Shown here: in pieces, positions 1,134 to 38,846 of the stretch
How positions within the stretch are numbered: the stretch's first letter is position 1
How the letters are laid out: each line of letters opens with the position of its first letter
NCBI GenBank assembly: GCA_947167125.1
Contig: CAMVGT010000018.1
Location: 1 to 38,846, forward strand
Length of the DNA stretch: 38,846 bases
Source: an uncultured Erysipelotrichaceae bacterium
GTDB taxonomy: Bacteria; Bacillota_I; Bacilli_A; Erysipelotrichales; Erysipelotrichaceae
Reading direction: 5' to 3'
Notes under the pieces: generated by a model
Databases searched by the model: none
Told to the model about the DNA's origin: nothing
The model's input: only the letters and a program-made list of their open reading frames with translations
Position numbers and translations under genes: made by a program

Positions 1134-1135
1134 GA

Positions 1136-3268: not shown

Positions 3269-3281
3269 AGGAAAAAAGAAA

Positions 3282-3305: not shown

Positions 3306-3309
3306 ACAG

Positions 3310-4879: not shown

Positions 4880-4940
4880 CACCGATGATGTCATCTTCCT
4901 TTCTCACATGATGTGCTAAGGTATTGGCAGAGGAACAAAC

Positions 4941-5534: not shown

Positions 5535-5538
5535 AAAG

Positions 5539-5600
5539 AAGAACTGTACCGGTTCATACATCATGTCAGTATGTACGGTACAGTTCTTTCATTTTTCTCA
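5539..5600. terminator. Bidirectional terminator
   Basis: AAGAACTGTACCG (5539-5551) pairs perfectly with 5576-5588 and has T-rich runs outside it on each strand. It serves the convergent methyltransferase and carboxymuconolactone decarboxylase-like genes. Confidence 0.88.
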
Positions 5601-5605
5601 ATTGC

Positions 5606-25340: not shown

Positions 25341-27518
25341 TTATCTGTCTGTTGACACATTCCGGTCATATCTGTACAGGAATGTAACAACATGTTCTCT
25401 CAGGCAGTCCAGCTTCGGTCCGAAGCCGCCGGCATATTCGCCGTCCTTATATCCTTTGGCAATGCCCTTTTCATTTGCCCAGAGCGCTGCTTTATAGTAA
25501 TAATCTTTAGGAGTTACGTCGTTGAACGGATTCTGTTCCGTTTCAGGCTTCGGTCTTCCTGCATATCTGTAAAGGAAGGTGACAACATGTTCTCTTAAGC
25601 ATGTTTCATCAGGTCTGAATGTTCCGTCATCATAGCCGCCGGTGATGCCTTTTTCAGCAGCCCATAACACTGCCTTGTAATAATATTTGCCAGGATCCTG
25701 CACATCCGGGAATGTGCTTTCCATGGACTGCGGCTCCGGTTTGCCGGCCAGTCTCCACAGGAATGTGACGACCGCTTCTCTTGTGCAGTTGTTCTGCGGC
25801 CTGAATGTTCTGGCCAGTTTGTCATCATCGGTATAGCCGTTGGTGATGCTGTTTTCCACAGCCCAGTAAACCGCATCGCTGTAATACTTTCCTTTTGCCG
25901 GAACATCGGTAAAGAGAACACGGATGACGCATGTTGCGCTGACACCGTTAACGGAAGTGACTGTGACTTCCGTTCTGCCTGCTTTGAGTCCTTTGAACTG
26001 ACTGCTGTCATTGGAAGCGATTTTCGGATTGGAAACTGTCCATGTCAGCTGCGCATCCTTTGCGCTTTCCGGTTCAATATGCGGAATCAGTTCAAAGATC
26101 TGACCGACTGTGATTTCATATTCATCTTTGTCGAATGAAATTGTTTCCGGATCCGGCTTTTCTTCTTCAAACGGTCCGAACTGGAAATATGCGGTGAGTG
26201 AATTCTTTGTTCTGTAAACTCTGTCCGCATGTCTGTCATTGAACACCACATCAACTGTATCGGCAAACTCATATTCATCATCGGTGTAGAGACTGAAGCG
26301 GTAGTAAGCACTGTCTCCTGCTTCCGCAATATAATCCCATGTAATTCTTCTTTCCGGATGTTCGATGGTTCCAAGGAACCATACACCTTCAACATCGCCG
26401 ACACCGTGCGAATGCTGCTTTTCATTGAACTGGGCAGGTGTCAGATAGCCGCTGTTTTCCGGAACCGACATATCCGACGCCCATGTGATGGCTTCGCCGA
26501 TCTTCGGTTCTCTGAAGATTTCAGAAGTCATGAATGCTTCACGGATCAGTCTCTTTTCAGCAATTCTGGTATCTGTATAAGTTGCGCCGCCGTATTTCAC
26601 GGTCGCTGTATAGACATTGTCTTCTTCCGTAATTTCCGCATGGACTTTGATAGAATCTCCGCACTGGCATACAAATTCCGCATATGCCCAGGAATAATCA
26701 TCCGCCCATGTCCAGTCATCCAGTTCATACAGATGCACATGTACCGGTGTATCCGTAACACGGATTGTGAATTTTCTTGAACCGGCTGTATAGGTTTCTT
26801 CACCGGCTGTTTTTGCGCTCACAACAACGGCGGGACTTGCGGAAATGGTTGTGGCCCCGACCTTTTCTTCCGTATCCATTGTCTTCCCGCTCTGCAGGAT
26901 TTTTGATTTCTCAAACATTTCAACACGGCTTTCCGGCATCGGGATATACATTTCCCCTTCATCTTTGAAGCGGACCAGATATTCCTGTCCGGCTTTCATT
27001 TCATAGACATCCGGGTTCTGCACCGTGTCATAGGTCTTTTCACCTTCATAGCGGGAAATCAATACATCTGTTGTAAAGCTTTCCTTTTCATAAAGACCAT
27101 CTTTGACAGTCACATTGAACGATGTGCTTAGTTCAGGATTTGCTTTGGATGTGGCAGTTACCTTCGTCTTTCCAAGACCGTTTAAACGGAAAGTCGGATA
27201 CAGATTTCCGGACAGGTCGGCAAGAATTGTGCTGTCTGCCTTCCATTCTGTCGATGTGTCCGCATTTGCCGGATCATAGGCAATGCGCATAACACCGGGT
27301 GCCCTGTAGAAATAGCCGGGATGCAGTTCCACATCTTCCGGCGTCACTCTTCTGATCGCGGTCGGCTTCACCTTCTCATCGGCAAGGATATTGTCCGCAT
27401 TCAAACCGGCTGTTTCCTCTTCTGTACCGCATGCTCTGCCTTCCGCATAAACGGGAAGAACCGTGCACATCATCATAAGTGCACATAATAAAGAAATAAG
27501 CCCAAACCGTTTTCGCAT
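25341..27518 (-). CDS. Secreted surface protein with three SLH domains
   Basis: 725 residues. The signal peptide is MRKRFGLISLLCALMMMCTVLPVYA. Next come Ig-like/Big-type domains, including one at about residues 460-545 (PETISFDKDEYEITVGQIFELIPHIEP). A segment WTWADDYSWAYAEFVCQCGDSIKV has a cysteine pair. Three S-layer homology repeats follow from about 545 to the end, each with an FxDV...YY..AVxWA pattern. SLH domains bind pyruvylated secondary wall polymer and hold the protein on the cell surface. AAAGGAG precedes the start. The split paralogue lies directly downstream, so the pair arose by tandem duplication. A ligand or enzyme activity is not evident. Confidence 0.9.
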   Translation of the reverse strand: MRKRFGLISLLCALMMMCTVLPVYAEGRACGTEEETAGLNADNILADEKVKPTAIRRVTPEDVELHPGYFYRAPGVMRIAYDPANADTSTEWKADSTILADLSGNLYPTFRLNGLGKTKVTATSKANPELSTSFNVTVKDGLYEKESFTTDVLISRYEGEKTYDTVQNPDVYEMKAGQEYLVRFKDEGEMYIPMPESRVEMFEKSKILQSGKTMDTEEKVGATTISASPAVVVSAKTAGEETYTAGSRKFTIRVTDTPVHVHLYELDDWTWADDYSWAYAEFVCQCGDSIKVHAEITEEDNVYTATVKYGGATYTDTRIAEKRLIREAFMTSEIFREPKIGEAITWASDMSVPENSGYLTPAQFNEKQHSHGVGDVEGVWFLGTIEHPERRITWDYIAEAGDSAYYRFSLYTDDEYEFADTVDVVFNDRHADRVYRTKNSLTAYFQFGPFEEEKPDPETISFDKDEYEITVGQIFELIPHIEPESAKDAQLTWTVSNPKIASNDSSQFKGLKAGRTEVTVTSVNGVSATCVIRVLFTDVPAKGKYYSDAVYWAVENSITNGYTDDDKLARTFRPQNNCTREAVVTFLWRLAGKPEPQSMESTFPDVQDPGKYYYKAVLWAAEKGITGGYDDGTFRPDETCLREHVVTFLYRYAGRPKPETEQNPFNDVTPKDYYYKAALWANEKGIAKGYKDGEYAGGFGPKLDCLREHVVTFLYRYDRNVSTDR

Positions 27519-27626
27519 GATAAATCTCCTTTGTTCATAAATACAATTGTACAGGACGTTATGTTTTTCCGTTCATAATTTTTTCTGTACATTCCCAAAC
27601 AATTCAATTCCCTATACAAAAGAACA

Positions 27627-27642
27627 GACGGTTTCTCGTCTT
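27627..27642 (-). terminator. Weak hairpin after the VanZ-VOC gene
   Basis: AGACG and CGTCT pair around a six-base loop and on the minus strand lead into a T-rich run. The stem is short. Confidence 0.35.
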
Positions 27643-28723
27643 ATTCCTCCATGAATGTAATCCGGATTCCCTCTTCATTGGAAACGGAAAATGTCCGTAA
27701 GCCGGTATAGGGATCCAGGCTGTATTCCGAAACTTCGATTTCTTCTTCGATCAGTTTCTTCCTTATCTTTTCCGAATTGTTTGCGGCAATCGTGATCTGC
27801 TGAGGCGGAAGAGGCGTCCCTTTGGGCAGTACAATCACTTCAATCTGTGTCCGGCTGCATTCATACAGCAGATGCGTGCTGTTTCCTTCCTGATGCTCAT
27901 TGTAAAGAAAGAAACCGAGCTGATCCGAAAAGAAGTGCCTGGTGCTCTCTTCATCGCATGTGTAGATTGTGGTCCGCATCATATGAATGCGGTCAAGAAA
28001 CGGATAGACAGCTGCCTTCTTTGCCGTCTTCTTCCATTTCCTCCTTGCCCTGAATTCTTTCCGCCAGTTGGGATGGGTGTTGGTATAGGCAACCGCCACA
28101 AACAGCAATGCCCCGATCATTCCTCCAAGCGTGTTTGTCAAAAGATCATCCAGATCGTAATAGCCATGCCGGGAGAGAAGCTGAACATTTTCAATCAATA
28201 CCGAAGCAAGAAAGCAGAAAGGAACAGTTCTTCGGAAAACATCTCTTCTGAACCAGTCAAAGATATAAGGGAGAAGATAGCCCATCGGCACAAACATCGC
28301 AACATTCATATAAACCTGCGCAATTCCGCCGCCGCTGATGACATGGATATGTTTCAGCATGCTGGAAAAGCCTTCTGTCACCAGGATGTTCCATGCGTCA
28401 AGAAGTCCGAAATCGATGTAGAAGGATGATGTGAAATCATGCAGAAGAGGTCCGGCATGGACCCGGTAGTCATCTGCTGTTCCTCTGGAAAGAAACGTGA
28501 CATATACGACCGCAAGAAGATAGAAAACAAACATGATGACAAGAAGTATTTTTCTTCTTCGCAGCAGCCGGTCCGCATCCGGATTTGTGCTGATGCCGTC
28601 GCTCAGTGAAAGACCGTATCTCCTGCAGATCATTCTGTCCAGAAGCGGAAGAAAAAACACCATTACAGCCATCATGGCTGTAACGATGATTCCTGTTTTC
28701 ATACTCTCCGGATTAAAGAACAT
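27641..28723 (-). CDS. VanZ-like membrane protein fused to a VOC/glyoxalase domain
   Basis: 360 residues from the ATG at 28723, which follows GAGGTGG; an in-frame GTG at 28750 lacks a ribosome site. Residues 1-230 hold about six membrane segments with the VanZ pattern (FVPMGYLLPYIF, SVLIENVQLLSRHGYYDLDDLLTNTLGGMIGALL). A basic linker (RKEFRARRKWKKTAKKAA) leads to a soluble domain of about 115 residues with the VOC/glyoxalase pattern (IHMMRTTIYTCDEESTRHFFSDQLGFFLYNE and onward). VanZ proteins are linked to glycopeptide tolerance in some contexts, but most have no known role. The fusion suggests a membrane protein with a cytosolic ligand-binding module. Confidence 0.8.
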   Translation of the reverse strand: MFFNPESMKTGIIVTAMMAVMVFFLPLLDRMICRRYGLSLSDGISTNPDADRLLRRRKILLVIMFVFYLLAVVYVTFLSRGTADDYRVHAGPLLHDFTSSFYIDFGLLDAWNILVTEGFSSMLKHIHVISGGGIAQVYMNVAMFVPMGYLLPYIFDWFRRDVFRRTVPFCFLASVLIENVQLLSRHGYYDLDDLLTNTLGGMIGALLFVAVAYTNTHPNWRKEFRARRKWKKTAKKAAVYPFLDRIHMMRTTIYTCDEESTRHFFSDQLGFFLYNEHQEGNSTHLLYECSRTQIEVIVLPKGTPLPPQQITIAANNSEKIRKKLIEEEIEVSEYSLDPYTGLRTFSVSNEEGIRITFMEE

Positions 28724-28756
28724 AAGCCACCTCTGCACTGTCATGCACACATCATT

Positions 28757-29191
28757 TTAACGTGTTATCCGGTCAGAATCATTTTTAATTCTCCGATGTG
28801 AGAACAGAACAGCAAGTTCAATCAGACTTTCAGCCAGCACACATGCAATTATGATGTATGCCCCTGTTTTCAAATTGTATAAAAGCAATGGTCTGAACGG
28901 TGTCAGAAAAACAACAGACAGCAGCGGTAAACTGTTTAAAGTCACAAGATCAGCTATACATGCTGCAATGATCAGCAGCTTCCATATCATCATAAACATC
29001 AATTCATGTTTTTCGCTTTTTATTGCTGTGTAATATACAGCTGCCAGATATACGGTCAGAAGCACAATTCCGCATATTAAATACAGTTTTACAGGACCGG
29101 GGATCGGAACAGTTACACACAGCAGCTGGGAAATGAACGAAATGACAATATGGAGACGGAATAATCTGAGAATTCCGGGATACCGGTTCAT
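28757..29191 (-). CDS. Small integral membrane protein
   Basis: 144 residues with about four membrane helices (HIVISFISQLLCVTVPIPG, LYLICGIVLLTVYLAAVYYTA, MFMMIWKLLIIAACIADLVTL and TGAYIIIACVLAESLIELAVLF). The start at 29191 follows AAAGGAG; a GTG six bases earlier is too close. It precedes the VanZ-VOC gene on the same strand by 33 bases, so the two are probably co-transcribed. No family is recognised. Confidence 0.75.
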   Translation of the reverse strand: MNRYPGILRLFRLHIVISFISQLLCVTVPIPGPVKLYLICGIVLLTVYLAAVYYTAIKSEKHELMFMMIWKLLIIAACIADLVTLNSLPLLSVVFLTPFRPLLLYNLKTGAYIIIACVLAESLIELAVLFSHRRIKNDSDRITR

Positions 29192-29239
29192 AAACACTTC
29201 TCCTTTCTAATCTTTCTGTTCATGTTAATCATACATACA

Positions 29240-29269
29240 TATATATTCAATACAGCATTTCATTTGCAA
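29240..29269 (-). promoter_or_regulatory. Probable promoter of the small membrane protein
   Basis: On the minus strand TTGCAA (29269-29264) and TATATA (29245-29240) are spaced by 18 bases. Confidence 0.45.
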
Positions 29270-29662
29270 TGAGTGCGGCTGAAACGCCTGTATATCAAAA
29301 CAGACTGACGCTGACACTGACAGGAATTATGCTGTTCCATTGTAGACAATCATGAATTATTCCTCATTTATTCCGTTAGTAAACTTCTTTTTTAACCTCT
29401 CAAATGAACTGACAGTCTTATTACTGAAACACAGTTTATCAAGTATTGGCAAGGAAAATAGAAGGAGCTCTATTCACATAATATTTAGTAATCAACACGA
29501 TGTACATACTGGATGCGTAATCGGTCAGTCTTCTGCGTAATCGGTCCATTGTTCCAGAGCTGTGTTACGGGAGTGGTTCAGGTAATCCGATAAAGGAAAC
29601 GAAAACAGCCTGTTTTCACAAGCTGTGGTCTGGTTCTGTATGATAGATTGCCATTATGAAAA
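29270..29662. other. Gene-free stretch before the repeat array
   Basis: No gene is supported here. The one clear feature is a pair of exact 13-bp repeats, TGCGTAATCGGTC, at 29514-29526 and 29534-29546 (20-base period). Confidence 0.5.
29514..29546 (+). repeat. Paired 13-bp direct repeats
   Basis: TGCGTAATCGGTC occurs twice with a 20-base period, 150 bases from repeat A. It resembles the short tandem sites beside the integrase genes and may be an arm-type site of a lost element. Confidence 0.45.
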
Positions 29663-29665
29663 ATA

Positions 29666-29689
29666 AAAGGGATTTGAGCAATCCCCTTT
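29666..29689. terminator. Hairpin before repeat A
   Basis: AAAGGGATT pairs with AATCCCCTTT, 7 bases before the repeat core. Nearly the same hairpin and gap occur before core D at 33239-33263. Confidence 0.55.
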
Positions 29690-29696
29690 ATTAGGT

Positions 29697-29842
29697 AGTG
29701 GAGCTGAGGGGTCTGGAACATTGTTATCTTATAGGATTTTTGCTGTTTTATACTTTCTTTTGCGGATGAATTCATCCATTTATGAGCGAATTTCCCTTTA
29801 TTGCAGTTATATTTTTTCAGGTCGGTCCCAAAAGTCGGTCCC
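29697..29842 (+). repeat. Repeat A (attachment-site-like)
   Basis: It begins AGTGGAGCTGAGGGG-TCTGGAAC and ends with two GTCGGTCCC copies 13 bases apart (29821 and 29834). The interior shares segments with B and C but is the most diverged. The core resembles a tRNA/tmRNA 3' end on the minus strand. Confidence 0.75.
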
Positions 29843-29899
29843 AGACAAAAATGCATGTCAATTCATTTCAGTTAAATAATTCAGAATACATTCATAGGT

Positions 29900-30481
29900 T
29901 CAACCAAGCTGCTGAACTTTTGTTTTAATAATTTCAAAATAATTATCATCGTCACTTCCAGCCAAATGTTTTCTGATTACGCCAACCACATTATCAGCAA
30001 ATTGCAATCCTTTATTATTGTATGAAAAATCCTGTCTGATAGACATCACATTGGGCAGACAACTGACTTCACTGATAATCCTGGTTTCAAATACTGCATT
30101 TCCAAATGCATCAAACGTCACAACAATCACTGGCTCATTAAGAGAGGATACAATCAGTTTAAGCAAGGTAATATAGCGCTTTTCTTTTTCATCCTGATAT
30201 AAAACCCCTTCAAATCTGTCGTAAGCATAAACTACGGCACATTGAAAAGAATTAAGCTTATACAGCAGTTTACGTTTGATCTGCGGATATGCCCTTTCAA
30301 GAATTGTTGATTTGAACTCGTTTGTAACAGCTTCTTTCTGTCTTCTTGTCATTGGAATGCTGGATATTTGTTTTTTTATCTGGCGATATGCTAAAAGCAG
30401 ATCCCGCTCACTATCCGCAAGAATTCCTCCCACAACTAACAGTTGTTCACCAATCGATTCATCAATATATAGATATTTCAT
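29900..30481 (-). CDS. DUF3800-like protein (cassette 1)
   Basis: 193 residues. The N-terminus MKYLYIDESIGEQLLVVGGIL matches the YIDES start of DUF3800, VIVVTFDAFGN holds a second acidic position, and GLQFADNVVGVIRKHLAG matches the LQxAD motif near the C-terminus. This family is thought to have an RNase H-like fold and is common in mobile and defence-related regions, but its activity is uncertain. No strong ribosome site is visible. It is the sole gene between repeats A and B and ends 58 bases before repeat A. Confidence 0.75.
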   Translation of the reverse strand: MKYLYIDESIGEQLLVVGGILADSERDLLLAYRQIKKQISSIPMTRRQKEAVTNEFKSTILERAYPQIKRKLLYKLNSFQCAVVYAYDRFEGVLYQDEKEKRYITLLKLIVSSLNEPVIVVTFDAFGNAVFETRIISEVSCLPNVMSIRQDFSYNNKGLQFADNVVGVIRKHLAGSDDDNYFEIIKTKVQQLG

Positions 30482-30587
30482 AAACTTCTAAAGAAAAAAA
30501 GTGAGGGCTCGCATCAATCTGCACATCCAGCATCCGTCTGCCGGAAACCGACACTTTTCGGCGATTCAATTCACCTTTGGTAATTAC

Positions 30588-30611
30588 ATTTTAGCTTTTG
30601 AAAGCGAAAAT
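30588..30611. terminator. Hairpin before repeat B
   Basis: ATTTT-A-GCTTT and AAAGC-G-AAAAT pair around TG, 4 bases before the repeat core. Its position matches the hairpins before A, D and E. Confidence 0.5.
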
Positions 30612-30615
30612 TACA

Positions 30616-30763
30616 AGTGGAGCTGAGGGGGGTCTGGAACAGTGTTAATCTATGTGATTTATACTGTTTTATGCCCTCTTTAACGTTTGAAATCATTCAT
30701 TTACAGCTATATTTTGCCATATACGTGTTATGTTTTTTTGAGTCGGTCCCGAAAGTCGGTCCT
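30616..30763 (+). repeat. Repeat B (attachment-site-like)
   Basis: 148 bases, starting AGTGGAGCTGAGG and ending with GTCGGTCCC (30742) and GTCGGTCCT (30755). It shares TTTATACTGTTTTATG and TTTACAGCTATATTTTGCC exactly with repeat C. It lies 17 bases 3' of the toxin gene. Confidence 0.8.
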
Positions 30764-30779
30764 AGACATACAAAATGAT

Positions 30780-31046
30780 TTACTTATAGATTTCCCTTCG
30801 ATGCCCGATGTTCAGTGCGATGATAACCAGATTCTCATCTTCAATAGTGCAGATCAAGCGATAGTCTCCGATTCGATACCGCCAATATCCGCGTTTATTC
30901 CCCGTCAGAGCTTTTCCAATCCTTCTTGGATCATCAATTCCTTCAAGATTTTTACGAATCCAAGAAGTGACCATTTTCTGTGTGTATTTGTCCAGCGTTT
31001 TGATTTCTTTGATAACTTCTTTGGTGAAACTGACGTGATATGACAT
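30780..31046 (-). CDS. RelE/ParE-family toxin (cassette 2)
   Basis: 88 residues, the family's normal size. KEIKTLDKYTQKMVTSWI, the conserved KALTGNKRGYWRYRIGDYRLICTIED and the C-terminal LVIIALNIGHRREIYK are typical of RelE toxins that cut mRNA on the ribosome. The start overlaps the antitoxin stop by one base (TAATG), which couples translation. The gene ends 17 bases before repeat B. Confidence 0.92.
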   Translation of the reverse strand: MSYHVSFTKEVIKEIKTLDKYTQKMVTSWIRKNLEGIDDPRRIGKALTGNKRGYWRYRIGDYRLICTIEDENLVIIALNIGHRREIYK

Positions 31047-31264
31047 TATAACCCCAGCTCTTTCTCCAATTCTTCCAGTGAATAAGTTTCAGGATTATTT
31101 TTATACTCGTCATAAGCTTTATCTGCCAGCACAATATCGAATTCATCTTCAATCTTCTCAAACAATGCCCTTTTGAAAGCTTCGGAAATGCTTAAGGAAT
31201 GCAGCTTGGCATAACTGTCTGCCAGTTTTCTTTCTTCTTCTGTCAATCTGATTGAAAAGCTCAT
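31046..31264 (-). CDS. RelB-type (DUF6290-like) antitoxin
   Basis: 72 residues. The N-terminus MSFSIRLTEEERKLADSYAKLHSLSISEAFKRALFEKIEDEFD is a ribbon-helix-helix DNA-binding domain. The acidic tail (DEYKNNPETYSLEELEKELGL) is the toxin-binding region. AAGGAGG precedes the start. It should neutralise the adjacent RelE toxin and repress the shared promoter through the palindrome at 31284-31296. Confidence 0.9.
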   Translation of the reverse strand: MSFSIRLTEEERKLADSYAKLHSLSISEAFKRALFEKIEDEFDIVLADKAYDEYKNNPETYSLEELEKELGL

Positions 31265-31283
31265 AATAAAAGCCTCCTTACGT

Positions 31284-31317
31284 AGTACATTGTACTCCTC
31301 AAGGAAGCTGTTTTCAA
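31284..31317 (-). promoter_or_regulatory. Toxin-antitoxin promoter and operator
   Basis: On the minus strand TTGAAA (31317-31312) and TACAAT (31294-31289) are 17 bases apart. A perfect palindrome AGTACA-T-TGTACT (31284-31296) covers the -10. The -35 ends one base before repeat C, so the cassette carries its own whole promoter. Confidence 0.78.
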
Positions 31318-31318
31318 T

Positions 31319-31465
31319 AGTGGAGCTGAGGGGGTCTGGAACAGCATAATCTTATAGGATTTATACTGTTTTATGATCTCTTTTACGGTTGAAATCGTTC
31401 ATTTACAGCTATATTTTGCCATATACCAGTTATATTTTTCTGAGTCGGTCCTGAAAGTCGGTCCC
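31319..31465 (+). repeat. Repeat C (attachment-site-like)
   Basis: 147 bases, starting AGTGGAGCTGAGGGGG-TCTGGAAC and ending with GTCGGTCCT (31444) and GTCGGTCCC (31457). It is closest to repeat B. Unlike A, B, D and E it has no clear hairpin at its left, because the toxin-antitoxin promoter lies there. Confidence 0.8.
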
Positions 31466-31469
31466 ACCG

Positions 31470-31894
31470 TTATCTCGGCTGAAATAAATCATCCAGGATT
31501 ACCTGACTTTGAATCATGCTGCTGTATTTATTATATTTCACACCATAGGTTGTAATCATAGTTATCTGCAAGGATTTTTTAGTTCCTGTCATTCTCCTGA
31601 ATGTTTCAAGTTTGTTTCTCAGTACCTGATCATATTCTTTATCAAGAATATATTTATTAATTGAGAATTTAATTTCACACAGATTTATCACCCTGTCACG
31701 TCTTTCAATCAGAAGATCAATTTGTGCACCGGGAATGCCAAGATCCGGATCACCATTCGTATGCCATACTGATTCCTGTGAAAGGACCCCGGATATTCCA
31801 AGTTTTCGTTTAATTTCTGCAACATGATCTTGTTTGATGAATAAATCAGGCTGAATAATATTGCCCCCGAACTTTGAAACAGCAATTCTTCAGA
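31470..31894 (-). pseudogene. C-terminal remnant of an AAA ATPase (ATPase_2/DUF234 type)
   Basis: The minus-strand frame reads PDLFIKQDHVAEIKRKLGISGVLSQESVW, then GIPGAQIDLLIERRDRVINLCEIKFS, then TKKSLQITMITTYGVKYNKYSSMIQSQVILDDLF and a stop. This is the C-terminal nuclease-like domain of the large family of prokaryotic ATPases with a DUF234-type tail, normally about 450 residues. The frame is open only back to a stop near 31894 and the whole ATPase domain is missing. It ends 5 bases before repeat C. Confidence 0.72.
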
Positions 31895-31895
31895 C

Positions 31896-32235
31896 TAACA
31901 GAATAATTCAATAATATAAGTCAAATCCTTGTTAGCCTCCGGCGATTTTGACACAAACCAGAAAAAAAAGGATCTAACCTCTTTGAATAGCCATTAAACT
32001 ACTCAACTGTTAGATCCCCTTTAATAATCATGCTGTATTGATGCTGGAAAAAGTCAAACGATGAGTCATTGTATTTGGCTTATCATAATACATCAAAAGG
32101 CATAAGTCCGCTCATTTCGCTGCTCATACCCTTTATGGTTATTTCCACTGTCGCTTCAAAGTTTTGCTGTTGGTGAGGAGGGATTCGTTGATCACCAGTT
32201 TTTTTAAGTCATTACAGGCTTCTCACACACTTATC
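31896..32235. other. Gene-free stretch with long-loop inverted repeat
   Basis: GGATCTAAC (31970-31978) and GTTAGATCC (32009-32017) pair around 30 bases. Read on the minus strand this leads into eight T, so it could end transcription of the upstream minus-strand gene. Otherwise I see nothing. Confidence 0.5.
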
Positions 32236-33090
32236 TTATTGCGTCACCTTTTTGAGCCAGCTGTCCAGCTGTGCAGTCACTTTGCAAAGTTCAAAGTATT
32301 CCTGCTGTCCATAATAAAGCTTCTCTGATCCATAAGAAAGAATCATCGCTGAATTATTTGCGTCAACAAATTCAAACCAACGCTCTGTATCCTCTTTAGT
32401 CAGCGGATACTGTGTACCCATTGTTATTTCACCTGAATTAAAAATCATTTTAAAGAAAGATTGATACATTTCTTTCGGCAATGTAACAGATTGTTTGCCC
32501 TGACTGGATATGATCAAACTTTCAGTATGCATGATTTTTTGCATGATTTTTATACCCCGGTATCCTGAATACATTCTCAAGACGCCATCCAGATTCATCG
32601 CATACGCCAAAGCTGTACGGATCGGATATATTTCTTTCCATTCTCTTTGCATATCTTCCGGATTGATTCCCCGGAAATAGCCGAGCACATTCGTCAGAAA
32701 AACAGAATTGCTGGAAAATACATCCAGATCAGGGTTATAACCTATGATGATCCAGTCATCACTGTATTCCTCGCTTAATAATCCCCCCTGACGGTTGTAC
32801 TCCTCAAAAAACATTCTGCTGCTGTCATTGTCTTCCAGTTTCCAGAATTGATCAGATCCATCCTGCTGCATCTGTAAAAGTATTGGCCTTACATAACTCA
32901 GCTGCCAATCGTCCGCTGTAATTTCCCGGATTCCCATTTCTTCATTCAACCAGTTCACAAACGAGTCAAAACCCATTTTCGGCACTATAAAATATGATTT
33001 TAGTTCTGAAACAATTGACGAAGAATAATTCTCATCTGTCAGATAAATATGCGGAATAGGAATTAAGTGTAATCGTTCCGTAATAATCAT
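32236..33090 (-). CDS. Uncharacterised protein (cassette cargo)
   Basis: About 284 residues from the ATG at 33090, which has TTGGAG eight bases upstream; an ATG at 33120 is possible but has no clear ribosome site. It reads MIITERLHLIPIPHIYLTD and contains DDWIIIGYNPDLDVFSSNSVFLTN and RMYSGYRGIKIMQKIMHTESL. It appears soluble, with no signal peptide or membrane segment, and is rich in aromatic and acidic residues. I recognise no family. It lies between the ATPase remnant and core D on the same strand as the other cargo, so a role in conflict or element biology is possible but unproven. Confidence 0.62.
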   Translation of the reverse strand: MIITERLHLIPIPHIYLTDENYSSSIVSELKSYFIVPKMGFDSFVNWLNEEMGIREITADDWQLSYVRPILLQMQQDGSDQFWKLEDNDSSRMFFEEYNRQGGLLSEEYSDDWIIIGYNPDLDVFSSNSVFLTNVLGYFRGINPEDMQREWKEIYPIRTALAYAMNLDGVLRMYSGYRGIKIMQKIMHTESLIISSQGKQSVTLPKEMYQSFFKMIFNSGEITMGTQYPLTKEDTERWFEFVDANNSAMILSYGSEKLYYGQQEYFELCKVTAQLDSWLKKVTQ

Positions 33091-33238
33091 TTGCGGGGCT
33101 CCAACCGTTTTGATAATCATAAACAAGCGCTCACAGTAAATAAAAGCTTGACTTAACTATATTTATGATACTTCGCATTTTCCATTTGGTACAACGCATT
33201 TTTGAGTATACTTGAAAATGTTAAAAATGCCGATAAAT

Positions 33239-33283
33239 AAAGGGGATTTGCGCAATCCCCTTTACTAGGTAGTGGAGCTGAGG
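33239..33283 (+). repeat. Hairpin and core D (partial attachment-site repeat)
   Basis: AAAGGGGATT (33239-33248) pairs with AATCCCCTTT (33254-33263), then TAGGTAGTGGAGCTGAGG follows. This matches the left flank and core of repeat A, but after GAGG the sequence diverges completely from the other repeats. Confidence 0.7.
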
Positions 33284-33621
33284 AGAAGGAGGGCTTATAT
33301 TACTCAGGATATTTGGCAGTATTTCATGGAAGACAGTAGTAAAGACAGTATCATGGAGCATTTGTCACGGAATTCTAATATATTATATTGCACCATACTC
33401 AATCTCTTCGTTGACGAATCGTGGCGAATGCTCTTTGATGGGTTTGGAATAATTGTGCTTAGTCGAAGCGATAATATTAAAATAGGGAATAGTAATATAT
33501 ATATTCAATAGGAAGAATATACTCCTTCATTATGATGTTATATCAAAAGCTTTGATGATATTATCTGCAGCATCACTTGACTTTATATGTTGTTCATAAA
33601 ACATGAATCTATTCAAGCCGT
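33284..33621. other. Gene-free stretch after core D
   Basis: An open frame to 33511 has no convincing start or family match. I see no other feature. Confidence 0.45.
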
Positions 33622-33744
33622 TTTGATGTTCCCGACACAGGAACTGCCCTGTTCCCCGACGCCCCTTCAAAGCGCGCAGTGAAGCATCTGGATGAACTTG
33701 CCGCTGCCGCACAGGAAGGCTATTTCTCAGGGTCTGAACTGTAA
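33622..33744 (+). pseudogene. Remnant of an sfsA-like gene
   Basis: The plus-strand frame reads GTALFPDAPSKRAVKHLDELAAAAQEGY and then runs to a stop. This matches the conserved ALFPDA..ERG.KHL.EL block near the C-terminus of SfsA (sugar fermentation stimulation protein). Nothing upstream or downstream extends it. It is a short decayed fragment of about 40 codons beside the cassette region. Confidence 0.6.
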
Positions 33745-33816
33745 CCCTATCATGTGCTATCATCAGACAGATTCATTCATCAGCACGTATCCGGAGCTGT
33801 CCGTTCATCCGTATAC

Positions 33817-33848
33817 CAAAAAACAGTCAGTACCAAAATACTGACTGT
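33817..33848 (-). terminator. Terminator of the dehydratase operon
   Basis: ACAGTCAGTA (33823-33832) pairs with TACTGACTGT (33839-33848). On the minus strand the stem is followed by six T. Confidence 0.88.
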
Positions 33849-33856
33849 CATATGAA

Positions 33857-35005
33857 TTACCAGTCTTTGACAGATCCGTCGTAATATCTCTTTGCGATAT
33901 TGGATCCTCTTTCGTTTGCCGGATAGAGTTCTTCCGCATTGTCTGCCAGTTCAATGCCAATGCCCGGCGCTTCCGGAATCATCATGAATCCGTCTTTGAA
34001 CTGCAGCGGATTCTTCACCATTGCGTTCTCAGCGCCATTGATGCAGAAGCCCGGGAGTTCCTGGATTCCCAGATTCGGTATGCAGGCGCAGATCTGTAGG
34101 CAGGCTGCTGTGGAAACCGGTCCGAGAGGATTGTGAGGAATCAGAAGAACATCATGCGCTTCCGCCATTGCGGCAATTTTCTTTGTGGCGGTAATGCCGC
34201 CGACCGCGCATACATCCGGACGGATATACCGGACTGATGTTCTGTCCATCAGCATTTCAAATTCGCGGATGTTTGTGAACCGTTCGCCGGTCGCGATCGG
34301 AATACTCACCTTGTCAGCAACCTGTGCCATGGTGTCGATGTTGTCCGGAGCCACCGGATCTTCGAAGACCATCGGTCTGTATTTTTCGACTTCCCTGCCG
34401 AATGTGACCGCCATCGCAGGTTCCATGCCGCGGTGTGCTTCAAGAACAAAATCGAAGTGCGGGCCGACTGCTTCACGGATGATTCTGACCTTTTCAAGTT
34501 CATCCTCAACTCTGCCGGAATAGAATTCATCAAATCCGTTATTAGCGGAACTGACCGGACCGTTGACAAAGATCTTCGCGGCATTGAATCCCTGTTTCTG
34601 CAGGTCTTTATAGCATTCCGCCAGTTCATTGAGATCTTCGGTTTTGGTCATGACCGAAGCATAGACTCTGATTTTATCTCTTGTCTTACCGCCCAGCAGC
34701 TGCCAGACAGGAACACCTAGTTTCTTTCCTTTGATATCCCACAATGCAATGTCAATTGCGGAGAGTGCGCTCATGATGACCGAGCCCCTGAAATAGACAG
34801 CGCGGTAGAGATTCTGGAAAATGTCTTCCGCATTGAACGGATCTTTGCCGATCAGATACGGCTTGAATTTCATGATCGCATCCGCTGTGGATGACAGGAA
34901 ACCCCAGTTTCCCGCTTCACCGAGTCCGGTAATGCCTTCGTCTGTATCGATTTCCGTAAACAGATAATGCTTTGCAAAACGCAGTCTGACATCTGTAATT
35001 TTCAT
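33857..35005 (-). CDS. Mandelate racemase/enolase superfamily sugar-acid dehydratase
   Basis: 382 residues. The N-terminal capping domain is followed by the barrel with metal ligands Glu189, Glu215 (VFEDP) and Glu241 (ATGERF). His191 in LEAHRG and His291 in IPHNPLGP are the likely acid/base residues. The spacing and the PHNPLGP motif fit the galactonate dehydratase group, which converts an aldonic acid to a 2-keto-3-deoxy acid. It is the last gene of a permease-hydrolase-dehydratase operon. The substrate could be another sugar acid. Confidence 0.87.
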   Translation of the reverse strand: MKITDVRLRFAKHYLFTEIDTDEGITGLGEAGNWGFLSSTADAIMKFKPYLIGKDPFNAEDIFQNLYRAVYFRGSVIMSALSAIDIALWDIKGKKLGVPVWQLLGGKTRDKIRVYASVMTKTEDLNELAECYKDLQKQGFNAAKIFVNGPVSSANNGFDEFYSGRVEDELEKVRIIREAVGPHFDFVLEAHRGMEPAMAVTFGREVEKYRPMVFEDPVAPDNIDTMAQVADKVSIPIATGERFTNIREFEMLMDRTSVRYIRPDVCAVGGITATKKIAAMAEAHDVLLIPHNPLGPVSTAACLQICACIPNLGIQELPGFCINGAENAMVKNPLQFKDGFMMIPEAPGIGIELADNAEELYPANERGSNIAKRYYDGSVKDW

Positions 35006-35010
35006 ATGAT

Positions 35011-35910
35011 CTATTCCTCCATCAGCAGGCTGCCGATGAAGCGCTTATGCAGTGCAAGCGCTTCTTCCCATTCGCCCGTTCTATTGATTGTAAAACCGTG
35101 CGGTGAATTCACAAATCTTCTCCATGTCACAGCCGTTCCGGCTTTCGCAAGCCGGTTTGCAAACCGTTCTCCTTCTTCCAGAAGCGAGTCGAGACCTGCT
35201 GTGATGACCAGTGTGTCCGGGAATGAAGCCAGTGTTTCATCATCCGCAAGAACCGGTGAAGCCAGTTCGTCAATGCACTGTTCCGGTTCCATATAAAGTT
35301 CAAGATAATTGTATTCCATTAAGGCTCTGGATACACGTCTTTGATCGCTGTAATCCTCACTCTTCAGCTTTGTAAAAGGATTGAGTCTCTGATCGCAGGG
35401 AATATAATCCAGCAGCAGACCCCGGATTTCAAACGCAGGGGTTCTGTGATTGAGAATCAATGCACCGCATGCCAGATTGGAGCCGGCACTGTGACCGAGA
35501 ATGAAGATGCGCTTTGGATCAAAACCGTATTCTTCCGCATGTTCATATGCATAGCGGACTATGTCATAGGTTTCATATACTGCTGCAGGAAACGGATATT
35601 CCGGGGCAAGGACATAATCCACATCCCATACCGATGCACGGTATGTTTCCGCAATCAACGAGCAGTATACGGAATCACGGTCTGCCCTTCCTTTAATGAA
35701 TCCGCCGCCGTGCAGGTTGATGAACAGCGGTCTGTTCTTTTCACCCTGTGTTCCGTCGAAGATCCAGGTGTCAACACCCTTTTCATTTGCGCCGATCAGT
35801 TTCCGTTCAGGTTTGACGGCAAGCTGATTCAGGATTTCCGGATCAACCGGTCTGAACGCGCCGGCATTGCGGCACTGTTCAGCCAGGATCAGTTTATCTT
35901 CACGTTTCAT
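35011..35910 (-). CDS. Alpha/beta hydrolase (HSL-like esterase/lactonase)
   Basis: 299 residues. The oxyanion motif HGGGF is at 67-71 and the nucleophile Ser141 is in GHSAG. The acid is in TAGLDSLLEEG and the histidine in NSPHGF near the C-terminus. It has no signal peptide. In this operon, upstream of the dehydratase by 5 bases and after the permease by 2 bases, it may open a lactone or remove an ester from the imported sugar acid. Confidence 0.88.
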   Translation of the reverse strand: MKREDKLILAEQCRNAGAFRPVDPEILNQLAVKPERKLIGANEKGVDTWIFDGTQGEKNRPLFINLHGGGFIKGRADRDSVYCSLIAETYRASVWDVDYVLAPEYPFPAAVYETYDIVRYAYEHAEEYGFDPKRIFILGHSAGSNLACGALILNHRTPAFEIRGLLLDYIPCDQRLNPFTKLKSEDYSDQRRVSRALMEYNYLELYMEPEQCIDELASPVLADDETLASFPDTLVITAGLDSLLEEGERFANRLAKAGTAVTWRRFVNSPHGFTINRTGEWEEALALHKRFIGSLLMEE

Positions 35911-35912
35911 AA

Positions 35913-37202
35913 TCAGAATGCAGGGAAGACTGTCATTGTGTAGATGATGTAGACAGCTGCCAGCATGATGGAGATCAGCCAGCCGCCTTTGAGCAGATCT
36001 TTCAGTTCATAGCCGCCGTCGCCCATTGCCATCGGTACAGCCGGCGTTGCCATCGGTGTCATAAATGCGGTAAGGCTTCCGGCATTGACCAGCATGATCA
36101 GACCGATCGGATTTGCACCGAGTGCGCTGCATGTCAGCAGACAGATCGGAACGAATACTGCGGAGACGGCACGGTTGAGCATCACCTGTGTCATCAGGAA
36201 CGGGATCACGAAGAACAATGCACCGAGAACATAGTTGTTATGGGTTCCGCCGACTGCGGATGCCAGTGCGTTTCCGATCATTTCACCGGCACCGGTATTT
36301 GTCAGAGCTGTTCCAAGTCCCAAAGCACCGACATAGAGGAGAATCATATCCCAGGGAATGTCGCGCAGTGCGTTCCTCTGATCAACAACTTTGAAGAGAA
36401 CCATCATCAGGCTTCCGACCAGGGCAACCCACCATGTCTGCAGTTTCAGCTGGGCAGAGAATACAAGGATAATAATGGTTGCGAAGAAGATGATGATGCC
36501 GGCTGTATTGGAGAATCCGGAAAGATTGCCTGCGGAAGCTTTGTTTTCTTTCTTTTCAGCTGTTTCGATTTCCGTCTGTGCAGGCAGGAACTTCGCGCTT
36601 AACAGCATCGCCCAGACAAGGACAACGATGATGACCGGCCATTCACCGAAGAAGAAGTTGATCGGTGTAAATGTCATGCCTGTAAATCCGTATGTTTCCA
36701 TGAAGCCGGTGAACTGGCCGCTCATCTGGATTGCGGTAGGACCGGGAAGAATGCCGCATGTGGCGATCGCCGTTACCATCAGCGGGAAGATATAAAGGGA
36801 TCTCGACACATTCCCCTTATCGCACAGCGCGCAGACAAGCGGGGATACGATCGCATATACAACCATCGGGCTGGCGATGAAGTTGGAAAGGATGACAGTG
36901 AGAATCAGATAGCCGAGGAATGCAAGTTTGAAGGATCCCTTTGTCAGTTTCAGAATGGAGTTGCACATGGTGTCAACCAGTGTTGTTCTTCTGAATCCGG
37001 CTGCGACGACGAACATGGCAGCCATCAGGATCGTGTTGGTGTTTGCAAATCCTGCCAGCGCTCCCTGTGAGTCAATGCAGTTGGTAATAAAGAGAGCCGC
37101 GAGGGAGATCATGGATGTCAGCCACATCGGAATTTTGTTCAGAAGGAAGCTGACCAGTGTTGCCACAAAGATGATAAGACAGATCATTAACTGGGTATTC
37201 AT
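35913..37202 (-). CDS. SLC13/DASS-type anion permease
   Basis: 429 residues with about 11-12 hydrophobic segments. NKIPMWLTSMISLAALFITN near the N-terminus, LSNFIASPMVVYAIVSPLV in the first half and LTAFMTPMATPAVPMAMG near the end match SLC13-like carriers, where paired re-entrant loops bind sodium and an anionic substrate. It should import a carboxylate, probably the sugar acid used by the next two genes. AAAGGAAC precedes the start, and it is the first gene of the operon. Confidence 0.85.
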   Translation of the reverse strand: MNTQLMICLIIFVATLVSFLLNKIPMWLTSMISLAALFITNCIDSQGALAGFANTNTILMAAMFVVAAGFRRTTLVDTMCNSILKLTKGSFKLAFLGYLILTVILSNFIASPMVVYAIVSPLVCALCDKGNVSRSLYIFPLMVTAIATCGILPGPTAIQMSGQFTGFMETYGFTGMTFTPINFFFGEWPVIIVVLVWAMLLSAKFLPAQTEIETAEKKENKASAGNLSGFSNTAGIIIFFATIIILVFSAQLKLQTWWVALVGSLMMVLFKVVDQRNALRDIPWDMILLYVGALGLGTALTNTGAGEMIGNALASAVGGTHNNYVLGALFFVIPFLMTQVMLNRAVSAVFVPICLLTCSALGANPIGLIMLVNAGSLTAFMTPMATPAVPMAMGDGGYELKDLLKGGWLISIMLAAVYIIYTMTVFPAF

Positions 37203-37291
37203 TTGATTGTTCCTTTCTCAGGTCTTTGCCTGTTTGCATATACAAAATAACCGTTTCACGGGCCCTCCGCGCTGAGGATATTCACAGATTG

Positions 37292-37305
37292 TGTAAGCGT
37301 TTACA
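37292..37305. promoter_or_regulatory. CcpA-type cre site
   Basis: TGTAAGCGTTTACA matches the cre consensus at every defined position. It lies about 90 bases upstream of the permease start, so catabolite control of the sugar-acid operon is likely. Confidence 0.7.
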
Positions 37306-37447
37306 CCCGTCTGCGCATGCATGCCGGGTTCCGGGATCGGGCATTTCAGAGCGAAAAAGCCAAACATTTTACCTGTTTCATGTCCCGAACTATGATAATA
37401 AATATGTATAGAATCCTTGCATGATTTTAAAAAAAAGCGCTTAATAA

Positions 37448-37468
37448 GCAGATATTATGCATATCTGC
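37448..37468. promoter_or_regulatory. Inverted repeat upstream of the AraC regulator
   Basis: GCAGATAT and ATATCTGC are a perfect 8-bp inverted repeat separated by TATGC, 67 bases before the regulator start. It may be an operator for the regulator or another protein. Confidence 0.5.
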
Positions 37469-37535
37469 TGATATATGTCTGAATCATATCCGAATATTTT
37501 CCACAGGGAAAATGTTCGGATTCAGGGAGAGAAAA

Positions 37536-38468
37536 ATGTCTAACTACCGCTATAAATTCGTTTCACCAAAGGACAGTCTGTATGCCGACTGCTATGTTCA
37601 TCAGGTCATGAACTTCCGCTATCACTGGCATCCGGATGAATTTGAACTGAATATCCTTCTCCATGGCCGCCAGCATTTCTTTCAGGGTACGGATGTCTAT
37701 GACCTTGAAGAAAATGATGTCATTCTGATCAATCCCAATGTCGGCCACGCTTCCTATTGCGATCCGGAAGGAACCATTGCCTTTGTGCTCCATTTCTCTT
37801 CTTCCGCTTTGAAGCAGTTCACAAAGAAAAACAGCATGCTTGCAATCACGGACTGCCTGTCTTCTGAAGAAACAAGAAATAACCCTGCCTATAAGAGGGT
37901 CCGTATGCATGCGGCAGAGATGATGTACTATCTGAATCAGGATTCCCCTTTTGCGTCTTATCTTGCAAAAGCCTCGCTGGAAATGCTGATCGGGACGCTC
38001 TGCACGATGTTTGAAAGCAGCACAGTTCTCTCCCACAATGAAACCGATGAGGAAACCCAGGCAGTCATGCGTTCGGTTCTTGATTATATGGAAGAGCATT
38101 ACAGCGAAAAGATCACGCTGGAACAGATTGCCGGACTGACCGGCTACAACCGCACCTATATCTCAACACTGTTTCATCAGACCGTCGGAATCCGTTTCTA
38201 TGACTATCTGATCCGGATCCGTCTGCAGAAAGCAATCAACGAGCTGATCACAACCGACAAATCACTGACGGAAATTGCGTTATACAACGGATTTTCCGAT
38301 CTGAAGTCATTCAACGCCCGCTTCCGTGACATGCTGAAGATTCTTCCTTCCCAATACCGCAGCATCATCCAGTCAGGAACTCTGAGCCCCGACTTCTTCG
38401 CAATCCGTTCCATCCCATGGAATGATCCTCTGATTGAGAAAAAGCTTCAGGAATACATGTCGCTGTAA
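37536..38468 (+). CDS. AraC-family transcriptional regulator
   Basis: 310 residues. The start at 37536 follows AGGGAGAG; an ATG at 37512 has no ribosome site. The N-terminal half is a cupin-type sensing domain (FRYHWHPDEFELNILLHGRQHFFQGTDVYDLEENDVILINPNVGH). The last 100 residues form the two AraC helix-turn-helix motifs, about 205-295 (ITLEQIAGLTGYNRTYISTLFHQTVG and LTEIALYNGFSDLKSFNARFRDMLKILPSQYR). It is divergent from the permease-hydrolase-dehydratase operon and is its likely activator in response to the sugar acid. Confidence 0.92.
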   Translation: MSNYRYKFVSPKDSLYADCYVHQVMNFRYHWHPDEFELNILLHGRQHFFQGTDVYDLEENDVILINPNVGHASYCDPEGTIAFVLHFSSSALKQFTKKNSMLAITDCLSSEETRNNPAYKRVRMHAAEMMYYLNQDSPFASYLAKASLEMLIGTLCTMFESSTVLSHNETDEETQAVMRSVLDYMEEHYSEKITLEQIAGLTGYNRTYISTLFHQTVGIRFYDYLIRIRLQKAINELITTDKSLTEIALYNGFSDLKSFNARFRDMLKILPSQYRSIIQSGTLSPDFFAIRSIPWNDPLIEKKLQEYMSL

Positions 38469-38514
38469 AGATGATCCTCAATTATCATGATCATTGTCAT
38501 TTCACAATACAGAA

Positions 38515-38715
38515 AGCAAGAAATGCGTGATCAAGGTATATGCCCTTCGGATGAGGAAAGCGTTCTCTGCCGACCTTTACGCGAACGGTGTAAACCCTGC
38601 TGTCACTAAAAAGCTGATGGGACACAAGAACGGAGATATGTCGCTAAATGCATATGCTAGCGCGTCGGATGAAGATGCCTTTGATGCTATGATGAACAAA
38701 AAATACAAGCAGTAA
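38515..38715 (+). pseudogene. C-terminal remnant of a tyrosine integrase
   Basis: The frame reads SKKCVIKVYALRMRKAFSADLYANGVNPAVTKKLMGHK and ends KKYKQ. It matches the last 66 residues of the integrase at 1895-3235 nearly along its length. It keeps the box II Arg, the LMGHK His and the NAYAS Tyr but has no N-terminal or core-binding part. Just before it the sequence shows no homology, so it is a truncated copy left by recombination or deletion beside the AraC gene. Confidence 0.85.
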
Positions 38716-38727
38716 AACCCGATATTT

Positions 38728-38749
38728 GTTGACGAATCTGTTGACGAAT
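38728..38749 (+). repeat. Tandem repeats next to the integrase remnant
   Basis: GTTGACGAAT occurs at 38728-38737 and 38740-38749, a 12-base period, 12 bases after the remnant's stop. It matches the paired GTTTACGAATC after the intact integrase at 3246-3268. Confidence 0.65.
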
Positions 38750-38764
38750 GGACAAAAACACGAA

Positions 38765-38788
38765 AAAACCGCGTAAATACGCGGTTTT
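38765..38788. terminator. Hairpin before repeat E
   Basis: AAAACCGCG (38765-38773) pairs with CGCGGTTTT (38780-38788), 2 bases before the repeat core. Confidence 0.6.
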
Positions 38789-38790
38789 CT

Positions 38791-38846
38791 AGTGGAGCTG
38801 AGGGGGTCTGGAACAGCATTAATCTATATGGTTTATACTGTTTTAT
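38791..38846 (+). repeat. Repeat E (attachment-site-like, cut by the window end)
   Basis: It starts AGTGGAGCTGAGGGGG-TCTGGAAC and continues into TTTATACTGTTTTAT, matching repeats B and C for its visible 56 bases. It follows directly the integrase-type end (remnant, arm repeats, hairpin). Confidence 0.8.

Follow-up and report, generated by a model that had tools for sequence, protein, structure and literature searches.

In the accretion model outlined in parts of PMC5704250, an integrative and mobilizable element (IME) inserts, decays to a cis-mobilizable element (CIME) and is followed by a fresh insertion at the attachment (att) site by the target gene. Excerpts of PMC7563491 report 33 two-element and 4 three-element composites in S. 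salivarius, the most decayed elements lying farthest from the target gene, with CIMEs of 1.2–13 kb and gene-less microCIMEs of 130–220 bp. The Dehalococcoides islands, as portrayed in portions of PMC3146451, lie in tandem at ssrA and carry a 20-bp ssrA direct repeat; 15 are without an integration module and were suggested to be cis-mobilizable, and the islands use a CcrB-like serine recombinase, DsiB, with insertion in the T-loop and metabolic cargo. Here we analyse an array of small units bounded by copies of the 3′ end of ssrA, the gene for transfer-messenger RNA (tmRNA), in a 38,846-nucleotide window of DNA from an uncultured Erysipelotrichaceae bacterium (positions 1–38,846 of contig CAMVGT010000018.1, assembly GCA_947167125.1). 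We consider it probable that the array arose by tandem accretion of CIME-like units at the ssrA 3′ end, with an IME at ssrA supplying both the enzymes and the half of the attachment site that is missing from the units, the P arm.

The array was first noticed in an original prediction, a model's reading of positions 29663–33283 from the letters and a list of open reading frames (ORFs), made with no database searches, which described cargo genes each followed by an attachment-like repeat. We compared the locus with 70 genomes of the same genus (Solobacterium relatives), labelled G with a number and their contigs C; the genomes named below are metagenome-assembled genomes (MAGs), and the source genome is G000, contig C18.

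The repeats and the 3′ end of ssrA

The three repeats A, B and C of the original prediction are real, with the positions, the AT-rich middle and the paired sites spaced by 13 bases that it gave; the ORF table likewise bears out gaps of 58, 17 and 5 bases between repeat and cargo gene. Relative to repeat B, identity over 135 nt is 72% for A and 87% for C, and a BLAST search of the genome with repeat C returned B (E = 2.9e-46), A (E = 1.7e-28) and a contig-cut copy at 38791. Each begins with a core, AGTGGAGCTGAGG, and continues through the AT-rich middle to two GTCGGTCC sites with 13 bp spacing at +124 to +126. On this layout the repeats are predicted half attachment sites, in which the core is followed by a P′ arm of AT-rich stretch and paired arm sites. 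Arms of this kind are of phage or IME type, as the original prediction had proposed for the site. Counting a pair as intact at ≤1 mismatch per site, we found it intact in 17 of the 25 assessable copies of the GTCGGTCC family.

The original prediction had likened the core to a tRNA or tmRNA 3′ end. The likeness was correct and can be made specific: judged by the match, the core is the actual 3′ end of G000's own ssrA, on contig C34. A tmRNA model places this gene at G000:C34:1634–1992 on the minus strand (110 bits), its 3′ end reading AGTGGAGCTGAGGGGAGTCGAACC on the plus strand, and ARAGORN found no tmRNA in the window. The core copies at 29697, 30616, 31319, 33271 and 38791 all match the ssrA 3′ end exactly over 13 bp, which is the flanking typical of CIMEs. 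With five unit starts in G000, the array reaches further than first described and continues beyond 33283 to the contig end. The core at 33271 is not bare, having its own P′ arm of a second family (family 2) with GTTGACGAAT-type sites at 33410. An ectopic array, away from ssrA, was also considered and was dropped on the family-2 arms and on G005:C2, where ssrA and array are joined on one contig.

The 14-mer RTGGAGCTGASGGG occurs in 43 of the 70 genomes and its reversed control in none (0/70). Nine genomes hold more than one copy (G005, 6; G000, 5; G040 and G104, 4 each; G044 and G105, 3 each; G011, G034 and G043, 2 each). Where it is single it lies at ssrA in 32 of 34 genomes, G022 and G025 having it elsewhere. 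A hairpin abuts the core on the left, with z ≤ −2 at 28 of 37 cores versus 21 of 300 random windows, the scores being from mononucleotide shuffles and some of the cores being related (29 left ends are distinct); raw folding energy separates cores from random windows weakly (dG ≤ −9 in 28/37 versus 45%). This hairpin could serve ssrA as a terminator when a unit adjoins the gene. A search of Rfam over 26000–38846 gave no match over the gathering score and a single chance-level hit at 38718–38792 (E 0.63).

A strict core-plus-arm pattern was found in 8 of the 70 genomes. A profile of 23 P′ arms, whose filters lose some weak matches, gave 29 matches in 10 of the 70; 26 are array copies, of which 25 begin at the ssrA core and one, in G047, is cut by a contig end. 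After three weak or partial matches (G011:C52, G041:C85, G005:C15) are set aside, the array is present in nine genomes of the genus. A BLAST search of 100 genomes, G000 included, found the repeat in eight, all within the 60 of the genus, although in one of them (G017) the match spans just 31 bp; none of the 40 genomes from a different family of the order had it. Across GTDB species genomes the pattern occurred in 16 stretches. Twelve of these belong to MAGs of Solobacterium or Erysipelotrichaceae, a number of which are labelled as coming from the jejunum or ileum of goats or sheep. The core-plus-arm pattern was absent from the viral contigs searched, and 29697–33283 had no match among 72,556 plasmid and 50,697 phage records, so that residence of the array on a phage or plasmid is unsupported. 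Two further sites are recorded here as side observations. G017:C147 has, at a distance from ssrA, a divergent core with an arm (GGTGGAGCTGAGAGGGACCGGAACAGC) that may represent a further type of P′, and a site GGTGGAGCTAAGGAGGTGTGCTTC, a weak profile match common to two genomes beside ORFs similar by eye, possibly belongs to another attachment family.

Units shared between genomes and their cargo

A unit extends from a copy of the ssrA 3′ end (core AGTGGAGCTGAGGGG) as far as the following copy. On the left it is edged by the core and P′ arm, with two tyrosine-integrase arm-type sites about 125 bp on, and on the right usually by a hairpin against the next core. Most of the units are CIME-like, with cargo alone and without a working integrase, relaxase or intact P arm.

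Units so delimited recur in other genomes with different neighbours. The DUF3800 unit, 919 bp from core to core, is shared end to end between G000 and G105 (95.8%) and G104 (92.1%), and its left flanks are unrelated in all three pairs of these genomes (0–6%; control comparisons of unrelated DNA gave a mean of 5.7% and a maximum of 23.4%). The RelBE unit, named for its toxin and antitoxin genes, is shared end to end between G000 and G044 (88.8% over 703 bp), in contig-cut form with G047 (87.3%, 15–703) and G011 (90.1%, 1–654), and over positions 1–420 only with G104 (84.2%) and G105 (79.6%). Its left neighbour is the DUF3800 unit in G000 and G104 (and in G105, by the P′ end), a major facilitator superfamily (MFS) unit in G044 and a phosphotransferase system (PTS) unit in G011; on its right stands an ATPase remnant (G000), a family-2 IME candidate (G044) or ssrA (G047). 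The three copies with an assembled right end (G000, G044, G047) agree in that end, which is integrase-less. The MFS unit of 5083 bp is 99.4% identical between G040 and G044. A pyruvate formate-lyase (PFL)-like unit lies directly on ssrA in G037 and is followed by further cassettes in G105, with 94.8% identity over 6270 bp up to the core.

Several junctions fall at the core. For RelBE in G044 and G047 the right flank is 99% identical over 300 bp and then drops to 1%, where G044 has a family-2 arm and G047 has ssrA; for PFL in G037 and G105 it is 98% and then 2%, with ssrA in G037 and a P′ arm in G105. The sharpest junctions lie ≤14–19 bp from the core start. The original prediction would have been undermined by a repeat found in unrelated contexts or by changes that never fall at the core; it came through this comparison, in which more than one genome proved to have integrase-less units, and these join their neighbours at the core.

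Three unit pairs have moved recently between genomes or species, since their identities of 94–99% stand against 67–69% for rnr/smpB of the same genomes: 99.4% versus 69.0% for G040–G044, 98.8–99.4% versus 66.8% for G005–G040, and 94.1% versus 68.9% for G044–G047. As a check on binning, a 6-kb stretch of each of two array contigs was compared piecewise with seven other genomes, counting matches some 1 kb or longer. The best match of G040:C16 was 83%, and that of G044:C14 was 93% (G106; next G011, 86%), the rnr of G106 being 93.7% identical to that of G044. The outcome fits the two host genomes, and gross misbinning of these contigs is therefore unlikely.

The cargo named by the original prediction largely stands (Table 1). 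The DUF3800-like gene and the toxin, of RelE/ParE type, have Pfam or NCBIfam support, with a RelB antitoxin in addition, and the "ATPase remnant" corresponds to the start of a G005 unit that holds a 479-aa ATPase reading frame. A relative in G040 matches the PADLOC model PDC-S27, and ATPases in relatives match the candidate-defence models PDC-S27 and PDC-S01. Neither the DUF3800 nor the RelBE unit has a further annotated gene, integrase or relaxase, which is the gene content of a CIME. The 296-aa ORF matched nothing in Pfam, PHROGs, PADLOC or NCBIfam at E 0.001. Across units the cargo comprises a toxin–antitoxin pair, DUF3800, candidate-defence AAA ATPases, and PTS, PFL-like and MLE operons. 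The non-coding right end of the DUF3800 cassette (30500–30615) is conserved, and parts of it also adjoin ssrA in G107 and G041.

Table 1. Coordinates of the array and associated features in the window
Feature	Positions	Strand	Detail
P-arm remnant from ssrA side, left array end	29658–29696	+	Terminator hairpin only, 39 bp, 95% to G000:C34 ssrA downstream flank; arm pair gone
Repeat A: ssrA core and P′ arm	29697–29842	+	GTCGGTCC pair at 29821/29834; opens DUF3800 cassette 29697–30615
DUF3800 protein, 193 aa	29900–30481	−	Pfam PF12686, E 1.4e-5, 26.3 bits, cut-off 21
Repeat B: core and P′ arm	30616–30763	+	GTCGGTCC pair at 30742/30755; opens RelBE cassette 30616–31318, 703 bp
RelE/StbE-family toxin, 88 aa	30780–31046	−	PF05016, TIGR02385
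RelB-family antitoxin, 72 aa	31046–31264	−	PF19807, NF046040
Repeat C: core and P′ arm	31319–31465	+	GTCGGTCC pair at 31444/31457; opens composite unit 31319–33270
AAA ATPase cassette gene, C-terminal remnant	31470–31831	−	86% to G005 ATPase unit over unit positions 3–513
296-aa ORF	32236–33126	−	No family match
P-arm remnant	33192–33270	+	79 bp, 95% to ssrA-side P arm; arm pair lost
ssrA core opening family-2 element	33271–33283	+	
Family-2 P′ arm sites GTTGACGAATCGTGGCGAAT	33410–33429	+	+139 from core
Operon: mandelate racemase/enolase superfamily, alpha/beta hydrolase, CitMHS-type transporter	33857–37202	−	
Divergent AraC-type regulator	37512–38468	+	
Family-2 tyrosine integrase, C-terminal remnant	38494–38712	+	81% to 1895–3235 integrase over residues 7–73
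Family-2 P arm sites GTTGACGAATCTGTTGACGAAT	38728–38749	+	Directly after integrase remnant
Fourth copy: core and beginning of A–C-like P′ arm	38791–38846	+	Contig end cuts before arm sites
Family-2 tyrosine integrase, 446-aa open frame, next to tRNA-Ala	1895–3235	+	PF00589 E 5.8e-14, PHROG integrase
Family-2 P arm sites GTTTACGAATCTGTTTACGAAT	3246–3267	+	
tRNA-Ala(GGC)	3309–3382	−	3′ end AGTGGAGCCGAAG, 2 mismatches in 13 versus ssrA core

P arms at ssrA and candidate integrases of two arm families

Of 30 ssrA flanks fetched, 11 show a P arm across the core from P′, with the sequence GTCGGTCCCAAAGTCGGTCCC or one close to it, and then a terminator (in G015 the arm is partly visible at a contig end, in G052 the terminator is shortened, and one flank of the 30, that of G017, is unplaced). 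The arm pair begins 99 bp from the core (−99) in all six of these 11 that were measured. The P-arm-like ends inside arrays, by comparison, are without the arm pair in three of three cases, the two remnants of Table 1 and G011:C59:7353–7504, and neither the DUF3800 unit nor the RelBE unit shows a P arm at its right end. With arm pairs seen on both sides of the core, a full site would run P (two sites), core, P′ (two sites). A P arm stands at ssrA in 5 of 7 array genomes versus 6 of 47 others (p = 0.0025, kinship ignored) among the 54 of 70 genomes in which ssrA is resolved, meaning a match that reaches query position 345 at least (a fragment in G010 is excluded, and G011 and G105 are unresolved); for genomes without a fetched flank, absence of the arm was judged from a match stopping at the ssrA end.

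Three genomes, G104, G106 and G051, have the following order outward from the P arm at ssrA: a helix-turn-helix (HTH) repressor (its family tested in G104), two small genes and an integrase, Int378. In G104 and G051 Int378 and the repressor share a contig with the P arm. We regard Int378 as the candidate integrase of the GTCGGTCC family and the GTCGGTCCC repeats as its putative arm-type sites. An element at tRNA-Thr in G044 has the same gene order, an integrase 31% identical to Int378 and a Mob_Pre relaxase; by eye it shows a short repeat pair 11 bp apart, then a terminator, then the tRNA, and G015 has a similar layout. In G106 a 370-aa ORF adjoining Int378 has a start like that of the G044 relaxase, by eye only. 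The relaxase-like ORF of G106 also contains an exact 34-bp tandem duplication (G106:C10, 10950–11017) near its split into two ORFs.

Other arrangements at ssrA were seen in passing. Directly downstream of ssrA on G034:C207 lies another tyrosine integrase (369-aa ORF, 28% to Int378; 4824–5933 of the fetched stretch). The ssrA flanks of G013, G103, G100, G018, G008 and G019 carry a different terminator-like hairpin (caggac..gtcctg) at the core, with differing sequence before it, and may point to a further, third family of cassettes there.

The original prediction found no intact integrase. This holds within 29.6–33.3 kb and not for the window as a whole, which has a 446-aa open frame, a predicted integrase (Int446), beside tRNA-Ala. 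Int446 and arms of the form GTTKACGAAT define the second family, which by comparison of the sites shares the ssrA core with the GTCGGTCC family. The stretch 33271–38790, with its MLE-type operon and AraC regulator, reads as a decayed family-2 element, on account of its arms, of an integrase remnant like the 1895–3235 integrase, and of the GTTTACGAATCTGTTTACGAAT pair and tRNA-Ala beside the latter. Its P′ arm has a counterpart in G044, GTTTACGAATGTTTACGAAT, likewise at +139. The G044 family-2 unit carries RepA_N, an IstB-like ATPase and a MobA/VirD2-type relaxase, and by this content is an IME candidate; no integrase was seen there. At the left of the window, 297–3382 is an integrative element of family 2 that comprises a 278-aa ORF, the 446-aa integrase and an arm pair and ends at tRNA-Ala. 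G011, G040, G052 and G105 have the same arm pair and flank next to related integrase frames (the frame of G105 being split), and on these frames the ends of both tRNA-Ala and ssrA seem to be used by a single integrase family. The notion of integrase-less cassettes needs qualifying: units without integrase do occur in several genomes, but integrases of both arm families are present in the window or in relatives, one of them a candidate assignment.

How the array may have formed and how it compares

By the usual rules for such integrases, a cassette flanked by core–P′ is without a partner site bearing a P arm. An IME at ssrA would supply that arm. Int378 would recombine the P–core of the IME with the core–P′ of cassette k, freeing cassettes k to n together with the IME as a circle, which would be mobilised and would integrate at ssrA in its next host; once the IME had been lost, the cassettes would remain between older ones and ssrA. 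Cassettes moved in such a composite are expected to keep core and P′ but not P, and the model fits the P′ arms mostly kept, the internal P arms lost, the IME or P arm next to ssrA and the changing cassette neighbours. Cis-mobilisation in a composite with an ssrA-proximal IME accounts for the half-site anatomy better than the movement in trans suggested by the original prediction.

Several observations weigh against this account. Neither a circle nor a recombination reaction was observed, and the Erysipelotrichaceae records named in the GTDB pattern search are all MAGs. Int378 was not found in the G000 assembly, where the best match has 24% identity and C34 begins inside the neighbouring gene. 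No contig carries Int378 plus a P′ arm; contigs break at the repeats, and the other IME end is unseen. G047 and G025 have array units yet no P arm at ssrA. Cargo clusters weakly on a tree of the 23 P′ arms: RelBE requires 4 changes versus a shuffled mean of 6.2 (as low in 18/500), ATPase and DUF3800 do no better than shuffles, and all labels together require 14 changes (as low in 50/200). Mean P′ identity is 82.4% for the same cargo in different genomes (29 pairs), 79.6% for different cargo in the same genome (24 pairs) and 76.4% for neither (198 pairs). A P′ arm travelling strictly with its own cargo failed on this tree. In two units, the G104 DUF3800 and the G025 ATPase unit, P′ is replaced up to the arm sites and one arm is lost. 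The MFS unit is shared although its P′ stops short of the arm sites, and the similarity of the unit to its left (ATPase remnant in G044, ATPase unit in G040) is no more than about 90%. From the mosaic arms and the replacement ending at arm sites, P′ arms appear to be exchanged by homologous recombination too.

A true cassette system, in which Int378 (or Int446) excises and inserts single core–P′ genes in trans with ssrA as the landing site, is possible, though we hold it doubtful. It would amount to an integron-like traffic of toxin–antitoxin, candidate-defence and catabolic cassettes among ruminant gut species. We think it unlikely that homologous recombination, acting on the 147-bp repeats and on flanking cassettes, is the main way in which cassettes move between arrays, with integrases having only founded the array long ago. 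The P′ arms are homologous (63–99% between different cargo), mosaic and loosely tied to cargo; the G104 and G025 replacements and the sharing of the MFS unit without P′ arm sites point the same way, and the G040 haloacid dehalogenase (HAD) unit resembles a deletion derivative of the G005 order. Against it, units also stand directly against ssrA (RelBE in G047, PFL in G037) or a family-2 arm (G044), which have about 15 bp in common with the GTCGGTCC P′ arm, and several junctions lie at the core rather than within the repeat.

Inert relics, complete IMEs inserted serially at ssrA and decayed in place with nothing integrase-less moving, would explain the integrase remnants at 38494–38712 and in G105 and the eroded internal P arms, and would follow the accretion model in the parts of PMC5704250 cited above. 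We judge this very improbable, for the same integrase-less RelBE end is found in G044 and G047 with different right neighbours and distant rnr/smpB, and the MFS unit is shared at 99.4%; decayed unit ends that are shared imply that units moved when already decayed. A plain dispersed non-coding repeat, MITE- or REP-like (miniature inverted-repeat transposable or repetitive extragenic palindromic element) or an RNA, with no tie to recombination, is hardly credible and was rejected: the copies are AT-rich and non-coding and three weak profile matches lie outside recognised arrays, but nearly all matches are array copies at the ssrA core, and Rfam gave none above its gathering score.

Integron arrays consist of genes with a 3′ recombination site in one direction, as singly gained or lost units of unrelated function. 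The original prediction compared the gene-plus-site unit to such a cassette, and core-bounded gene-plus-site units of unrelated function in one direction are indeed what we find. In other respects the likeness fails: the site is a core with direct-repeat arm sites rather than an attC palindrome, whole operons with divergent regulators are carried, the target is ssrA, and accretion of CIMEs and IMEs comes closer. The window integrase scored 44.6 bits against the XerA/integron model (cut-off 220) and Int378 26.2 bits against TIGR02249 (cut-off 265); both lie far under integron-type cut-offs, and membership among integrons is unsupported. IntI was not seen among these two integrases, no IntI search of the genomes being made and the ssrA end of the G000 array lying in an assembly gap. 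In staphylococcal cassette chromosome (SCC) composites, units likewise follow one another at the 3′ end of a single gene, and some of them have no recombinase gene; the composites differ in their serine recombinases, rlmH target and large units.

CIMEs and microCIMEs, as the excerpts of PMC7563491 and PMC5704250 present them, resemble the array in having no integrase or relaxase, direct repeats of the gene 3′ end, decay greatest away from the target gene and an IME adjoining it. Unlike the CIMEs of those excerpts, the array has five unit starts on one G000 contig and gene-bearing units of 0.7–0.9 kb, most units are without the P-arm side, and three pairs are 94–99% shared between distant genomes. 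The Dehalococcoides islands, going by the portions of PMC3146451 used here, are also tandem at ssrA, have ssrA direct repeats, as does the array, and include members without an integration module; the array differs in its two families of tyrosine-integrase-type arms, its units down to 0.7 kb and its toxin–antitoxin and candidate-defence cargo. The integrases examined are of the Phage_integrase (tyrosine) type, no search aimed at DsiB being made; by eye, an ORF in G005:C89 resembles a serine recombinase. Among the matches listed in the open-licence literature, no title describes ssrA cassette arrays or integrase-less phage-type cassettes.

The best reading of the array is a miniaturised variant of CIMEs and of the Dehalococcoides ssrA islands. 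On this reading, units built up by CIME-type accretion can apparently be reduced to single genes of less than a kilobase and still spread between species, which would bring genomic islands and integron cassettes closer together. The half-site anatomy could be a rule for recombinase-less mobility: retain core and P′, and borrow P and the enzymes from a neighbouring IME. The ssrA locus may then provide a readout of recent gene traffic in toxin–antitoxin systems, candidate defence and sugar use among uncultured ruminant gut bacteria.

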